A stretch of 64,000 nt of DNA from the NCBI RefSeq assembly GCF_027622945.1, contig NZ_JAPZVQ010000007.1, positions 124,001 through 188,000 of the forward strand. Direction: 5' to 3'. A program made the translations under genes and the position numbers. This stretch comes from Glycomyces lechevalierae. Its GTDB lineage: Bacteria; Actinomycetota; Actinomycetes; Mycobacteriales; Micromonosporaceae. Below are positions 33,978-42,312 of this stretch, piece after piece (position 1 is the stretch's first letter; the number at the start of each line of letters is the position of its first letter). The notes beneath the pieces are model-generated. The model made no database searches. It was given only the letters and a program-made list of their open reading frames with translations, and was not told the origin of the DNA.

Positions 33978-36353
33978 TCAGGCGGCGATGTCGCCGTAGA
34001 TGATGCCGCGGCCGTTCGTGGTGAGGTAGACGCGGCCGTAGATCTGCGGGTCGCCGGTGATGGACGATCCCGACCAGGCCCACTGGTGGTCGTCGTCATT
34101 GATGCGGGACCAGCGGTTGCCGCCGTCGGTCGAGCGGTAGATCGCGGCCTTGCCGTCCTTCACGGCCGAGGTGAAGATCGCGGGATAGCCGGATCGCTTG
34201 GCGGCCTTGCCGAAGCCCACCGACTCGGCCGTCTCGAACACCGTGATCTTCTTCCAGGTGGTGCCGCCGTCCTTGGAGCGCCACATGCCCCCGCCGATGC
34301 CCTCCTTCTCGTCGCCGCGCCCGGCGAGCCAGACGTGGTTCTTGTGGCCCGGAACGGCACGGAAGTTCTCCACCGCCCCGGTCGGCAGGCCGGTCGCACC
34401 CGTGTCGGCGAAGGTCTTGCCGCCGTCGGTGCTGCGGTAGAACACGCCACCGGAGAAGGCGTACAGGACCGAGGCCTTGCCGCGGTCGGAGCGGACCTTC
34501 GCCCCCGCCGGGAGTCCTTCGACCGGGTTCCAGGTCTCGCCCAGGTCGGTGCTGTAGACCGGAGTGACCTCCGTGTCGCTCGGCGACCAGACGATCTTGG
34601 ACCCGTCGGCGGTGACCGCGACGGTGCCGCCGTGGCCGTCGCCGGGGACGCCTTCAACGGGTGCGGCGTTCTTCCAGGTCTTGCCCCGGTCGGTGGAGAC
34701 GCCGACGTGGCCCTTCTCGTTGCCGTGCACGTTGCCCGTGCCGACGACGACGTCAGGCTTCGATTGGGCGAAGTCGACGCTGGTGCCCGTGGACCAGTCG
34801 GTGTCGATCATCGGCTCGGCGCGGCCGAGGTCGGTATGGACGAAGCCGCCGACGTCGCCGACAGCGGAGACGAGCGTGCCACCGATCGCGGCGAGGTCCA
34901 GGACCGCGCACTCCTCGACGCCTTCGGCGCGCACGCCGACAGTGAACTGCTCGATCGGCAGGGCGACGCGTCCGCCGTTCCCGTCCTCACCGATCAACTC
35001 GCCTTGGGCGTCCCACTGCGTCAGTTCCTCAGTGCCCCAGATCGTGGCCCCAGTGCCCCACATGAGGCGGTCGGAATTGTGCGGGTCGATCGCGAAGGCC
35101 TCGATCATCCACCCGTGCTTGACCGCGTACGCGGGCCCCTGGTCCTCGCCGTTCCACGACAGCCACGGGCTGCCCGAGCTGTCCATGACGAAGCGGTCGT
35201 GGCGATCCTGCCCCTCGGCGTAGTCCCAGCTCAGCGACCAGGTAGCGCCGGAATCCGTTGAGCGGTAGAGGATCTCGTCGGGGTACCAGTTGTTGCACGT
35301 GGAGGCCATCAGAGTGCCGGGGTTCTGGAGGTCGATGGTGATCCCGCCGAAGCCCGGAATCACGCCGCGCGGGTTGTAGGTCGGGGTGACGTCGGTCCAC
35401 TCGCCGGTCTGCGTGGACAGGCGCTGGATCTTGCCGCCGTTGCCCGAGGCGGGCGCGCCGTTATAAGGGCCGGGGTCGTAGCCGGTGATGACGTACAGGA
35501 ACCCGTTCGTATTGTCCACTGCGGACTGCTTGGGAATGGTGCGGTTGCCGTCGACCGAACCCAGCGCCGCGGCTGCGCCGGGGACGGCCTGCCAGGTCGC
35601 GCCGCCGTCTTCGGAGACGTACAGCGGATCGGCCGGGTCGGCCACGCCCACATAGATCTTCCCGCCGATCTGGTCGAAGTCGATCCAGATCACGCCCTGG
35701 TTGTCCGCGTTGTAAGGATTCGCGGGGTCGATGACGAAGTTGCCGGGGTTCGGGAACTCCTCGACCTTCGCCCAGGTGCGGCCGTAGTCCTTCGAGCGCC
35801 ACAACCCGTTGCCGCTGGGAGTGCCCAGGTACAGCTCGGCGTTGTCGGCCGGGTTGACGACCAGACGTTCGCCCATGCCGCGCCCGGGCATGTTGCCGCC
35901 CTGCTTGAACGGCAGCTCGGCGACACCCCAGGTGTCGCCCTTGTCGTCGGAGTAGAGGATCGCGCCGTTGTTGGTGTCCCAGTCCGTGGTGTAAGTCCCG
36001 ACGGCGGCGTAGACGCGGTTCGTCTCGACCGGGTCGGTGGCCATCGAGACCACGCCCGAGTAGCCCCACTTGTCGCGGCCGACCCAGTCGAGCAGAGGCT
36101 TCCAGGTCCGCGAGTCCTCCTGCCAGCGGTAGCATCCGCCGATGTCGGTGCGGGCGTAAATGAGATTGGCCTCAGTCTCGTTGAAGACGATGCCCGGCAC
36201 GAACCCGCCGCCGTTGATCGCAGCGTTCTTCCAGGTGTAGGCGTCGCCGCCCTGCCTGTTGCGTTCCTCGGCTCCTGCGAGGAGCGGAACGGACAGGGCA
36301 CCGGCCCCGACCACGGCCGCTCCTGCGGTCGCGGCGAATGTGCGTCGTCGCAC
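33978..36353 (-). CDS. Secreted GH74 xyloglucanase
   Basis: This endo/exo-acting beta-1,4-glucanase for xyloglucan has 791 residues; GTG 36353 follows AAAGGAG. The Tat-type signal MRRRTFAATAG ends near LLAGA. The mature protein is the double seven-bladed propeller of GH74, starting with the hallmark YTWKNAAINGGGFVPGIVFN. The two catalytic aspartates are Asp70 in IYARTDIGGCYRW and Asp593 in IVWSPSDTEVTP. Repeated BNR-like blades such as YRSTDGGKTF and WRSKDGGTTW continue to the end. There is no carbohydrate-binding module. It lies downstream of the importer scar, with a terminator-like hairpin in between. Its own promoter is not obvious. Confidence 0.96.
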   Translation of the reverse strand: MRRRTFAATAGAAVVGAGALSVPLLAGAEERNRQGGDAYTWKNAAINGGGFVPGIVFNETEANLIYARTDIGGCYRWQEDSRTWKPLLDWVGRDKWGYSGVVSMATDPVETNRVYAAVGTYTTDWDTNNGAILYSDDKGDTWGVAELPFKQGGNMPGRGMGERLVVNPADNAELYLGTPSGNGLWRSKDYGRTWAKVEEFPNPGNFVIDPANPYNADNQGVIWIDFDQIGGKIYVGVADPADPLYVSEDGGATWQAVPGAAAALGSVDGNRTIPKQSAVDNTNGFLYVITGYDPGPYNGAPASGNGGKIQRLSTQTGEWTDVTPTYNPRGVIPGFGGITIDLQNPGTLMASTCNNWYPDEILYRSTDSGATWSLSWDYAEGQDRHDRFVMDSSGSPWLSWNGEDQGPAYAVKHGWMIEAFAIDPHNSDRLMWGTGATIWGTEELTQWDAQGELIGEDGNGGRVALPIEQFTVGVRAEGVEECAVLDLAAIGGTLVSAVGDVGGFVHTDLGRAEPMIDTDWSTGTSVDFAQSKPDVVVGTGNVHGNEKGHVGVSTDRGKTWKNAAPVEGVPGDGHGGTVAVTADGSKIVWSPSDTEVTPVYSTDLGETWNPVEGLPAGAKVRSDRGKASVLYAFSGGVFYRSTDGGKTFADTGATGLPTGAVENFRAVPGHKNHVWLAGRGDEKEGIGGGMWRSKDGGTTWKKITVFETAESVGFGKAAKRSGYPAIFTSAVKDGKAAIYRSTDGGNRWSRINDDDHQWAWSGSSITGDPQIYGRVYLTTNGRGIIYGDIAA

Positions 36354-36417
36354 GTGGATCTCCTTTGAATCGGTTGTCGGAACTTGCGTCCCCGCGGTGT
36401 GACGGCGTGGGGGAAGC

Positions 36418-36450
36418 GGGCGTCCGGGCCCGGCACAGATCCGGACGCCC
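36418..36450 (-). terminator. Terminator-like hairpin between importer scar and GH74 gene
   Basis: A 10-bp stem, GGGCGTCCGG / CCGGACGCCC, with outer G-run/C-run pairing (about 36409-36456) lies 31 bp after the scar's stop codon. It is where a terminator of the lost permease gene would be expected. Confidence 0.7.
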
Positions 36451-36480
36451 TCCCCCTGCGGAACTTTCAGAGACCGCGGG

Positions 36481-36567
36481 TCAACCTTTCACAGCGCCGG
36501 TGATGCCGGCCTTCGTGAAGTGCTTCTGGGCCAACGGAAAGGGCGCGTTCATGGAGGGAACGGGCAT
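36481..36567 (-). pseudogene. Deletion scar of an ABC importer: binding-protein start fused to permease end
   Basis: A 28-codon frame runs from ATG 36567 to TGA 36481. It opens MPVPSMNAPF, matching the first ten residues of the intact binding protein at 42247 (MPVPSSNAPF) at nine positions. It ends QKHFTKAGITGAVKG, the typical C-terminus of a MalG/LplC-type sugar permease. The upstream leader (AAGGACC, then CTCC, then ATG) and the 15-mer at 36621 are also shared with the intact gene. The simplest reading is that a binding protein plus permease gene block was deleted between these points, leaving an in-frame remnant. It is too short to work as a transporter. Confidence 0.8.
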
Positions 36568-36620
36568 TGGAGGGGTCCTTTCCAGGATGCCGCCGGAAGG
36601 GCTGAAGTAGCGAAGGATCT

Positions 36621-36635
36621 TTAAATTTGGATATG
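36621..36635 (-). promoter_or_regulatory. Conserved CATATCCAAATTTAA element upstream of the scar
   Basis: The 15-mer is identical to 42298-42312 upstream of the intact binding-protein gene and lies at a similar distance from the ATG (53 versus 50 bp). It is AT-rich in a GC-rich genome, so it is a promoter or operator candidate retained from the deleted importer. Confidence 0.65.
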
Positions 36636-36669
36636 CCTACAAACTAACAATATGCCGAGAGCCCTTCCT

Positions 36670-36686
36670 CGCACAAGCCTTGTGCG
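36670..36686. promoter_or_regulatory. 17-bp palindrome downstream of GH36 / upstream of scar
   Basis: CGCACAAG-C-CTTGTGCG is perfect. It may be an operator for the scar/GH74 transcript, or a weak terminator after the GH36 gene, whose stop is about 90 bp away. Confidence 0.45.
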
Positions 36687-36777
36687 TGAAAAAGATCAGA
36701 TGAATAACTGCAAACCTTCCCGGCCCTCAGCGTCCGCCACTGGAGTTCTCGTAGGCCTTTGACAGCTGGACTCCGGA

Positions 36778-38847
36778 TCACCGCTGCACTGTGAATATCC
36801 TGGCGGCGGGCCCCGCCGGCAACTCGACCACCGGCGTCTCGCCGTCGGTGCGGATCGTCCACTCCGGCAAGGCGACCGGGTACGCCTGCTTCAGGTCCCG
36901 CCCGCGCAGCCCGGGCAGCGCGACCTCCGCGGCCTCACCGCGCGACCACAGCGCCAGCAGCGACTCGGACTCGGTGTCGAGCTGCAGCGCGATCACCTCG
37001 TCCCCCCAACCCGGCAGCCCCAGCGGCCACACCGGATGCGACCTGGCGATACGGTGCCGCCAGTCCTTATGCAGCGCAATGGCTTCGCGTACCAGCGCGG
37101 ACTGCTCCGCGCTCAACTCGTCAAGGAACCCGGAGAGGTACAACCGACCCATGGCGCCCGCCGTCATCGCGAACGCCGTCTCCTCCAGGGTCATCGACGC
37201 GGCCGGATACGCCCAGTTCCCCGCCTGTTCGGGAAGGACGCTCGCGGGCGCGGCCGCCGCGATCGGCGCGTACTTCCGGAAGTCCTCCTGGTCTGAGGTC
37301 GACTGCAGATGCGCCACCGAAAGGAGGTTGTAGTCCATGCGCAGCGCACCCGAACCGCAGTTCTCGAACAGCACTCCCGGATGCCGGGCGTGCACGCCGC
37401 GCAGCCAGTCGCGGAAGGCACGGGTGTGACCGAGCAGCCCTGCCGCTGGCGTGTCGGCGTCCACTTCAGTCCCGCCGCCGATGTTCCTGTTGTAGTCGAG
37501 CTTGATGAACTCGAGCCCGAACTCGCCCACCAGCCGGTCCACCGTCTCGTCCAAGTGCGCGCGCGCCGCCGGATGCCGCAGGTCGAGCTGGAAGTTCCCC
37601 GCCACGATCACCCGCTCGCCGAACCGCTGGAAGAACGCCTCTTCCGGCAACCGCTCCGCTAGCGCCGACTCGACCCCGACCGATTCCGGCTCCAACCACA
37701 GCCCGGGCCGCATGCCGTTGGCGCGGATGGCGTCGGTGACCGACGACAAGCCGCCGGTGAACCGCTCGGGAGCCTCGAGCCACTCCCCCGCGCCGACCCA
37801 CCAGGCGCTGCCGGGCGTGGCGTACCACCCGGCGTCGATGCAGAAGTACTCCGCGCCCGCCTCGGCCGCGGACTCGATGAGCGGCAGTAGCTTCTCCGTC
37901 GACGGCTCGCCCATGAGCGTGTTCATGTAGTCGTTGTAGACCACCGGAAGCCGCGCGTCGACCGGGCGCACCTCACGGATCGCGCGCCGGTAACCGGTGA
38001 GCGCCGCGAAGGCCGCGTCCCGGCCGCCATCGGCGACGCAGAGTCCTGCCGGCACCGAGGTGAACTCCTCGCCCGGCGCCAGCCGCGCGGCGAACTGGTG
38101 GTGCCTGTCGGTCGCGCCGTACACGCCCACGGTCACCGTGGCCCCGGTCTGCGCCACCTCCCAGTGCCAGCTGGCGCTGGTCTCGACCTGCCACGCGATC
38201 GAATGGACGGTCTCGCCGGCGAGGACCCCGGTCGGCAGGAACGAACCGGTCGACCAACTCCCATGGCTGGTCAGTGAGAAGAGCCCGCGCGGGTGCTGGC
38301 CGCCGTGCATCGGGGGATCGATGTCGGGCAGCAGCTCGCTCAATGGGCGCTGCCGCCAGCGCCCCTCGGCCCGCCATTCGCTCTCGGCCCAGAGGAGGTC
38401 GTGCGCACCGTCGGCGGACACGGCCACGAGCGCCGAGCTCACTGAGAGCAGTACGAGACTCCGGTCGGCGTTATTGCGAACGGTGTGACGGATCTGGAGG
38501 CCCGGCCCAGCGGCGCGGAAGACGCTGAGCACCTCGACGCCGAACTCCGGTGCCCGCTGGCGGATCCGCAGCTCGGTCTCGTCCGATTCGTGGCCCGCGT
38601 AGCGGAGCCGCTGCCCGGCGCTCGAGTAGAGGAGGCCCTGGTCGTCGCTGTCGCGGTGCTCGACGCCGGCGGTGACGACGTCGACGACCGCACACGGCGC
38701 GACCGCCGAGGGCGCCTCGGGTGCCGTCGCGAGGCGCACGAGCTGCACGGGGCGGTCGTCGCGGTGGTCGAATCTCAGGTGGAGCCCAGGGAGGGCCCAC
38801 TCGAATACTGGATCCTCGTCACCATGCGACGGGACTTGCGATGCCAT
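36778..38847 (-). CDS. GH36 alpha-galactosidase
   Basis: This cytoplasmic enzyme removes terminal alpha-galactose from oligosaccharides. It has 689 residues and no signal peptide; ATG 38847 follows GCGGAG. A large N-terminal beta-supersandwich (about 1-300) precedes the barrel. The nucleophile is Asp451 in GLEFIKLDYNRNIGG and the acid/base is Asp519 in LQSTSDQEDFRKYAP, with the ENCGSGALRMDY motif between them. A short C-terminal sandwich ends in ARIFTVQR. It starts 47 bp downstream of the DUF5605 gene on the same strand, so the two probably form an operon acting on imported oligomers. Confidence 0.94.
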   Translation of the reverse strand: MASQVPSHGDEDPVFEWALPGLHLRFDHRDDRPVQLVRLATAPEAPSAVAPCAVVDVVTAGVEHRDSDDQGLLYSSAGQRLRYAGHESDETELRIRQRAPEFGVEVLSVFRAAGPGLQIRHTVRNNADRSLVLLSVSSALVAVSADGAHDLLWAESEWRAEGRWRQRPLSELLPDIDPPMHGGQHPRGLFSLTSHGSWSTGSFLPTGVLAGETVHSIAWQVETSASWHWEVAQTGATVTVGVYGATDRHHQFAARLAPGEEFTSVPAGLCVADGGRDAAFAALTGYRRAIREVRPVDARLPVVYNDYMNTLMGEPSTEKLLPLIESAAEAGAEYFCIDAGWYATPGSAWWVGAGEWLEAPERFTGGLSSVTDAIRANGMRPGLWLEPESVGVESALAERLPEEAFFQRFGERVIVAGNFQLDLRHPAARAHLDETVDRLVGEFGLEFIKLDYNRNIGGGTEVDADTPAAGLLGHTRAFRDWLRGVHARHPGVLFENCGSGALRMDYNLLSVAHLQSTSDQEDFRKYAPIAAAAPASVLPEQAGNWAYPAASMTLEETAFAMTAGAMGRLYLSGFLDELSAEQSALVREAIALHKDWRHRIARSHPVWPLGLPGWGDEVIALQLDTESESLLALWSRGEAAEVALPGLRGRDLKQAYPVALPEWTIRTDGETPVVELPAGPAARIFTVQR

Positions 38848-40552: not shown

Positions 40553-42247
40553 CTACTCGCCGTGAACGCTCTTGTACGCCTCCGTGTAGTACTCGCGGGC
40601 GGCTTCGCCGCCGTTGTCCAGGAAGGTCTGGACGATGTCCGGGATGGTGGAGAGGTCGGCGCGGCCGTAGGCGATGTCGTTCTGCTGGTCCCACAGCGTC
40701 GAGGCGGCGGCCTTGAAGTCGGCGGGGCCTTCGATCCGCATGCCCTCGAACATGTTCTTGCTGCCGTACTGCTGGATCGCGGCGTTGTAGTCGAACCGGG
40801 CCTGGACCGTCTCGGGGTCGCCGGTGAGGAAGTTCTGGACCTGGCCGCACAGCGCCTTGTAGTTGACCGGGGCCCCGACGATGGTGCTGCCCGACTCGGT
40901 GAGGACGGGGGTGCCGTCCTCGCCGAGGTCGAAGTGCTCGCCTTCGACGCCGTACTGCAAGAGCTCATACTCTTTGGTCCCATAGGGGGACGCGCACCAG
41001 TTCGCGACGTCGAGGATCTCCTCGACCTGCTCCTTCTTGAGATCCTTGTTCAAGAACGTCCAGCCTTCGACGGCGGGGTTCATCGAGACGATCGGCGTCC
41101 GGCCCTTCGCGGCCAGGGGCGGCAGCGGGGCGATCGCGCCCTCGACCTCACCGGTCTTGACCTGGCGCGCGAACTCGCCCCACCAGATCATGCTGTCCTG
41201 AGTGAACAGGACGCTCCCGGCCGCCTGCATCGCGTGGGTGTCGAGGGTCCCGCTCGGGGCGTCGGGGTGGATGAGCTGCTCGTCCCACAGCGTGCGGCGG
41301 AACTCCAGCAGCTCGGTGAACTCGGGCAGCTCGCTGGTGTGGTACATCTTCTTCTCGTTCTCGTCCCACTTCCAGCCCTCGGTGTCTCCCGTGGAGAACC
41401 ATTCGCCGACGAACCAGTCGAGGGTGGCGAAGGCCCACTTGCCGTTCGCGTCGTCGGACCAGGCTCGGCAGACCTCCAGAAGCTCCTCGACCGTGGTCGG
41501 CATCGCCAGGTTCGCCGCTTCCAAGTAGTCCGTGCGGACGAACACGGCGTTGCCCTGACCGCCGCTGAGGGTGCCTGGGATGCCGTAGATGCGGGCGGTG
41601 GCGGGGTCGGCGACGTCGGTCGACCAGACCGACTGGCCCCACGACGCGGTCGGGAGGCCGGCCAGGAGCGGCCAGCGCCCGGCGATGTCGCCCTTCACGA
41701 TGTCGGTCAGGTCGTAGAAGCCGTTGACGACCGTCTCCTGGAAGTTGACGTGGGAGCCGAGCATCCAGCTGGACATCATGATGGCGTCGCCGTACTCGTT
41801 GGCCTTGAGCCACTGCACCGAGGTGTCGGCGTAGGTGTTGCCGTCGGCGTGGCGGAGGTTGATGACGGTCCCGCCCCAGGCTTCGGAGACGGCCGCGAAG
41901 TACGGGTCGTCATTGGACGGGTTGGCGCCCCAGTTCGGCACGGTCATCTCGTAAGTGCCGCTGCCCGAGGGGAGTTCGGTGACGGCTTGGACCGGCTCCG
42001 GGTACGAGGTGAAGCCGGAGGGGTGGTTCGGCGGCTCGCCGACGAGGTCGGGCTGGACCGGGAGCGGCCACTCCTGGTACGTGGGCAGGAAGTCGAACCC
42101 CTCGGTGGACTGCACGGCGCCTTCGCCGGACTCGATGTCGCTGCAGGCGGCGAGGACGGGCAGCCCGGCGGCTCCGGCGGCGCCGAGGCCGGCGACCTTG
42201 AACAGTGAGCGGCGGTTGAAGGGCGCGTTGGAGGAGGGAACCGGCAT
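40553..42247 (-). CDS. Orphan ABC transporter substrate-binding lipoprotein (LipO/YtcQ type)
   Basis: The protein has 564 residues; ATG 42247 follows AAGGACC. The signal has the Tat-like NRRSLFKVAG and a lipobox LAAC with Cys35. The large size and motifs such as WGANPSNDDPYFAAVSEAWG, GIPGTLSGGQGNAVFVRTDY and a C-terminal GMRIEGPADFKAAASTLWD fit the large CUT1 binding proteins of the LipO/LplA group, which handle oligosaccharides from complex polysaccharides. No permease genes are adjacent. The scar at 36481 preserves its first ten codons joined to a permease tail, so a paralogous importer once existed nearby. It must use permeases encoded elsewhere or be non-functional. Confidence 0.88.
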   Translation of the reverse strand: MPVPSSNAPFNRRSLFKVAGLGAAGAAGLPVLAACSDIESGEGAVQSTEGFDFLPTYQEWPLPVQPDLVGEPPNHPSGFTSYPEPVQAVTELPSGSGTYEMTVPNWGANPSNDDPYFAAVSEAWGGTVINLRHADGNTYADTSVQWLKANEYGDAIMMSSWMLGSHVNFQETVVNGFYDLTDIVKGDIAGRWPLLAGLPTASWGQSVWSTDVADPATARIYGIPGTLSGGQGNAVFVRTDYLEAANLAMPTTVEELLEVCRAWSDDANGKWAFATLDWFVGEWFSTGDTEGWKWDENEKKMYHTSELPEFTELLEFRRTLWDEQLIHPDAPSGTLDTHAMQAAGSVLFTQDSMIWWGEFARQVKTGEVEGAIAPLPPLAAKGRTPIVSMNPAVEGWTFLNKDLKKEQVEEILDVANWCASPYGTKEYELLQYGVEGEHFDLGEDGTPVLTESGSTIVGAPVNYKALCGQVQNFLTGDPETVQARFDYNAAIQQYGSKNMFEGMRIEGPADFKAAASTLWDQQNDIAYGRADLSTIPDIVQTFLDNGGEAAREYYTEAYKSVHGE

Positions 42248-42297: not shown

Positions 42298-42312
42298 TTA
42301 AATTTGGATATG
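42298..42312 (-). promoter_or_regulatory. Conserved CATATCCAAATTTAA element upstream of orphan binding protein
   Basis: Identical to 36621-36635; both are about 50 bp ahead of MPVPS start codons. GTTTATTTA precedes it here and GTTTGTAGG precedes it at the scar. Promoter/operator function is inferred from conservation. Confidence 0.65.

Follow-up and report, generated by a model that had tools for sequence, protein, structure and literature searches.

A fused reading frame in Glycomyces lechevalierae, the probable relic of a lost ABC importer operon

Deletion pseudogenes and fusion relics are a known outcome of partial operon loss, and the loss of one among several redundant paralogous importers is likewise familiar. 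A short frame in the 64,000-nucleotide stretch of the Glycomyces lechevalierae genome analysed here (the window; G000:C31:124001-188000 of an assembly of 5.6 Mb in 33 contigs) resembles such deletion relics. The start of a first gene is fused to the terminus of the last of the lost genes, and the flanks and the leader are kept. Further points of likeness are a neutral substitution pattern and an intact counterpart in a relative. The locus differs in that the join happens in frame and in that its right side may be that of another operon type.

Comparison can also be made with ABC importer operons that have two BPD_transp_1 permeases. The intact relatives of the locus carry a binding protein and two PF00528 permeases, whereas the relic retains two ends only, so that it is no importer. 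The importer class that was lost is presumably that of the CUT1-type carbohydrate importers. With regard to the GH74 xyloglucanases, the next gene appears to code for a full-length homologue, but the relic is just the neighbour of that gene. The locus opens no new kind of system and is a case of ordinary gene loss, here well documented. It provides a clean example of how an actinobacterial genus sheds redundant importers and keeps the leader and the enzymes next to it; congeners supply an intact counterpart, the same scar and further losses that differ from it. It is also a warning that short fused frames can be relics, whose annotation as small proteins is to be avoided.

The fused frame and its intact counterpart

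The frame lies on the minus strand from 36567 to 36481 and codes for MPVPSMNAPFPLAQKHFTKAGITGAVKG in 28 codons followed by TGA. As a sequence-only reading of the window had proposed, it consists of the start of an importer binding protein fused to the end of a permease. The initial ten codons (36538-36567, minus strand) are those of the lost binding protein, and the terminal 18 codons with the stop (36481-36537, minus strand) are those of the lost second permease. Homology to the intact loci L088 and L089 and to the relic L086 stops at 36539; alignments of permease ends start at 36537 in 11 of 14 stretches (13 intact ends and one relic, L098) and at 36528-36529 in the three others. The binding protein starting at 42247 shares nine of ten residues with the relic start (MPVPSSNAPF vs MPVPSMNAPF), exactly as first noted. 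A search of the genome with the tail, suggested by the same reading, retrieved permease C-termini at several places, the best match after the tail itself having an E value of 2.3e-4 and 75% over query residues 10-29. In intact operons the binding protein comes first, followed by permease 1 and permease 2, and the fusion is thus colinear with them: both of its ends are homologous to operon genes and follow each other in operon order. Compared by eye, the junction ends have one base (C) in common and a loose CCC-TTCA / CCCGTTCA likeness, and for this reason no homologous mechanism is proposed.

An intact set in a close relative had been predicted and was found in G. harbinensis, where binding protein and both permeases stand between the same neighbours as the relic. 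The order in this species is DUF5060-family protein, Melibiase-family glycosidase, binding protein, permease 1, permease 2, GH74, isomerase-like protein and Gfo-type oxidoreductase; the window has these neighbours too, but the relic where the importer would be. Its alignment to G. harbinensis runs to query position 262 and resumes from 264, 3.64 kb further on. This break at the junction on both sides bears out the supposed loss of a binding protein-permease block. The presence of a complete importer at this place in a related species makes the case one of clear but ordinary gene loss. The partner segments are 3.63 kb apart in G. algeriensis, which has an importer with the same leader but at another place.

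Both permeases of the intact sets carry PF00528. The binding protein had no match among Pfam, NCBIfam or PDB sequences at E 0.001, so the substrate was deduced from the neighbouring genes and would be a carbohydrate. The left neighbour (36778-38847, minus strand; PF02065) is a Melibiase-family, GH27/36-type glycosidase gene that is also found in G. harbinensis, G. buryatensis and G. luteolus. Next downstream of the relic is the GH74-type xyloglucanase gene (33978-36353, minus strand), whose product matches PDB 5jwz over residues 37-788 and 6p2o over 37-789. Close homologues of the DUF5060 gene occur in 7 of 22 genus genomes (E up to 1e-150) and those of the Gfo gene in 5 of 22 (E up to 1e-120), the own genome included each time; by these counts the locus appears confined to part of Glycomyces. 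Additionally, a record of Promicromonospora soli (L102:10001-12067) contains a Melibiase-family glycosidase 94% identical to that of the window, with a GH5-like neighbour also at 94%, which suggests a transfer between genera or a mislabelled contig.

Paralogous importers and related losses in the genus

The genome of G. lechevalierae has 12 binding-protein matches, six of them at 60-100% identity with the window's own included. Two binding protein-permease-permease sets are complete by homology (L011, L012) and two more are seemingly cut at contig ends inside permease 1. The contigs concerned, C11 and C1 (L009, L010), end there in the same 127 bases, so that importer operons were split by the assembly. 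The retention of closely related importers would explain why the loss was tolerated, provided that the remaining importers overlap in function with the lost one. At 40553-42247 (minus strand) an intact binding protein is encoded as an orphan, behind a related leader and with no permease gene beside it. It is missing from the corresponding place in G. niveus and G. harbinensis, and it may use the permeases of a paralogous operon. That it is the piece lost from the relic locus in a new position was considered but not adopted. Tandem GH74 genes are located behind a permease pair at the start of contig C31 (L092:1750-6569).

The junction was aligned well across in at least two of 22 genus genomes, those of the window and of G. 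luteolus; this is a lower bound because 27 of 41 to 107 first-look candidates were scored per genome. The relic frame of G. luteolus reads MPAPSSSAPFLFIQKHFTKAVITGAVKG, and its contig stops about 300 bases into GH74. At the same place, G. buryatensis retains the leader, then about 107 codons of a binding-protein gene that is frameshifted near codon 74, and then GH74. Its locus lacks the permease end kept in the window and the window lacks its binding-protein piece; the different pieces kept imply two different loss events. The GH74 gene beside this importer relic (L086:9013) has ATC where eleven other copies have ATG or GTG, and may have lost its start codon. In G. niveus, homology behind the Melibiase-family gene covers only 113 positions of a 550-base query, and the importer-GH74 operon is on another contig.

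A second relic was encountered in G. buryatensis at L098:4150-4275 (G006:C80, about 66.2 kb). The terminal 26 codons or so of permease 2 stand behind a leader-like CATCTAAATTTAG, a likeness that is short (26 bases, 77%, E 3.3) and was read by eye. No in-frame start codon was found for this relic, and stop codons lie upstream. An intact permease pair is located 38 kb away on the same contig. From this relic it follows that importer loss leaving a leader and a permease end happened more than once in the genus. No published account of the locus, the importer or such a Glycomyces relic was found in the titles and abstracts searched, which included few subscription journals.

The sequence-only reading had held that a short gene conserved under selection in relatives with no importer at this place would speak for a real small protein. 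The copy in G. luteolus, the one other species in which the short frame was found, shows no sign of selection. It differs from that of the window at 13 of 87 bases and 7 of 28 residues, with nine non-synonymous and two synonymous changes (pN 0.14, pS 0.10); the synonymous excess expected of a functional small protein is absent from this pair. The yardstick was taken from the permease part only, where 13 intact ends (78 pairs) gave a pN/pS of 0.076; these ends exclude L098, a relic with no permease 2 match at 1e-10, and L251. For this one sequence pair and its 11 changes, at least nine non-synonymous changes have a probability of 0.48 if selection is absent and of 1.3e-5 if the frame is constrained like intact permease ends. 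The 9:2 ratio is that expected without selection and points to a relic rather than a maintained small protein. Residues F, I and V, kept across the 13 intact ends, are altered in the window copy. There is no indel within the 87-base frame, the single alignment gap at the stop being a choice of alignment; the lack of indels would also fit mild constraint.

The retained leader and the hairpin after the frame

The leader of the lost operon, with a putative promoter, operator and ribosome site, lies at 36568-36702 (minus strand). It is 87-92% identical to the leaders of G. luteolus, G. buryatensis, G. harbinensis and G. algeriensis. Retention of the promoter had been claimed beforehand: the leader sequence was indeed retained, and the promoter within it is putative. 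A simple scan of the stretch gave no sigma-70-type match. The window and G. luteolus share 87% of leader positions and 66% of positions in the spacer between relic and GH74. The identity of the leader was set against that of fourfold sites from two left-neighbour genes, giving 0.873 vs 0.838 for G. luteolus, 0.919 vs 0.862 for G. buryatensis and 0.873 vs 0.877 for G. harbinensis. On average the leader is thus about as conserved as fourfold sites, so constraint on the leader as a whole is unsupported and its present function is putative.

The 15-mer CATATCCAAATTTAA, part of the putative operator, is located at 36621-36635 (minus strand) and again at 42298-42312 in the leader of the orphan binding protein; its presence upstream had been reported correctly, as had that of the ribosome-site-like GGAAAGGA at 36576-36583 (minus strand). 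With Y allowed at position 7 and up to two mismatches, CATATCCAAATTTAA occurs at 3 places in the 5.6 Mb genome (a control pattern at 1), all of them upstream of the relic or of binding proteins of this family. A block around TGTTMGTTTGTRGRCATATCYAAATTTA is kept among five leaders and partly in more distant paralogues. Together with the 15-mer, it constitutes a putative operator or promoter. We take the labels CUT1 for the importer, ROK-type for the operator and Tat for the signal as assumptions. The ribosome site is changed in the G. luteolus copy (GGAAAGCA vs GGAAAGGA), and AAAGGA is found in the five other leaders compared. The leader is now nearest to the GH74 gene, which it would presumably drive.

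The hairpin between the relic and GH74 (36409-36456, minus strand) had been described as terminator-like. It does fold, modestly better than shuffled sequences (z -2.05, with 7 of 200 as good). Nevertheless, the terminator scan returned nothing at 36409-36456, where no T run follows the stem. The only site in that scan is a weak one in the leader (36656-36671), with 0.5 expected by chance. As the same stem is present 3' of the permease in intact operons, the hairpin predates the junction and the description as terminator-like is doubtful. It is probably not a terminator.

Origin of the junction

We consider it probable that the frame is the relic of an importer operon lost through a deletion of about 3.64 kb, which left the leader before GH74 and was tolerated through paralogues. 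An ancestral operon of binding protein, permease 1 and permease 2 would have stood between the Melibiase-family gene and the GH74 gene. The deletion, with practically no homology at its ends, would have joined codon 10 of the binding protein to the final 18 permease codons in frame. The join can be read from the compared sequences, and plain deletion would be the route to it. The leader and the putative operator would have stayed, now directly before GH74, which they probably transcribe through the relic. Closely related importers were kept, and an overlap of their function would have made the loss tolerable.

The right side of the junction is of another kind than in G. harbinensis. The permease end and spacer are 89% identical to a paralogous operon of the same genome (G000:C31), 81% to G. 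algeriensis and 77% to G. harbinensis, and the whole right segment (permease end, spacer and 5' part of GH74) is nearer to G. niveus and other operon types than to G. harbinensis. Hence, no intact operon seen carries both sides as they stand. The GH74 signal peptide at both relic loci is VRRRTFAATAGAAVVGAGAL, that of the G. niveus operon, while in G. harbinensis, G. buryatensis and G. algeriensis it is RRRTFTATASVG. In a GH74 tree of the first 330 aligned bases, the two relic loci together with G. niveus are set apart from the nine remaining sequences by a 97% node. GH74 copies are mosaic, with 300-base blocks 0.81 to 0.96 identical to one own paralogue. In the left-flank tree (5 genomes), a split (100%) sets the window and G. 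niveus apart from G. luteolus, which falls with G. buryatensis and G. harbinensis. In conflict with it, the rpoB tree has a clade (99%) made up of the window, G. niveus, G. luteolus, G015 and G. algeriensis. The rpoB genes were chosen by motif in 21 of 22 genomes, G017 being left out for its partial rpoB; gyrB was unused because none was found in the G. lechevalierae genome. The type of the right side and this conflict indicate that the locus recombined between lineages.

These observations bear on a rival that we find rather unlikely, although far from negligible: the permease end and GH74 of a paralogous operon replaced the locus by ectopic recombination, or a longer deletion spanned two tandem operons, the halves of the relic stemming from different operons in either event. 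The shared signal peptide, the 97% node, the 89% vs 77% identities, the mosaic GH74 copies and the tandem GH74 pair at G000:C31:1750-6569 all favour it. However, GH74 gene conversion, earlier or later than a plain deletion, accounts for this pattern too, the halves follow each other in the order of a single operon, and the permease part of the relic has only 54 bases, too conserved for firm typing. Plain deletion with or without gene conversion, deletion across tandem operons and ectopic replacement are each compatible with the data, and the likeness of the right side to another GH74 operon type makes plain deletion indistinguishable from ectopic replacement. That the 28 codons are a real small protein or a translated leader peptide controlling GH74 is highly improbable. 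The copies of two species, about 85-87% identical in DNA, agree in frame, length and position of the stop, but nine of 11 codon changes in this one sequence pair are non-synonymous, the ribosome site is altered in G. luteolus, and known genes explain both halves of a junction that was aligned well in at least two of 22 genomes. An assembly error or a chance resemblance has almost no likelihood left. Permease copies are alike enough to break the assembly, as at the ends of C11 and C1, but the independent G. luteolus assembly has the same junction with substitutions of its own, and homology explains both sides in the expected order.

Alongside the deletion reading, a hand-over of the promoter may be envisaged from these comparisons, if doubtfully: the secreted xyloglucanase would have come under the sugar-responsive leader of the importer, the joined piece would have spread by recombination, and the relic would serve as 5' leader. 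Two observations lend part of this proposal support: the same junction is shared by two species that the left-flank genes place apart, and joins of a leader to a permease end are found at two loci in the genus.
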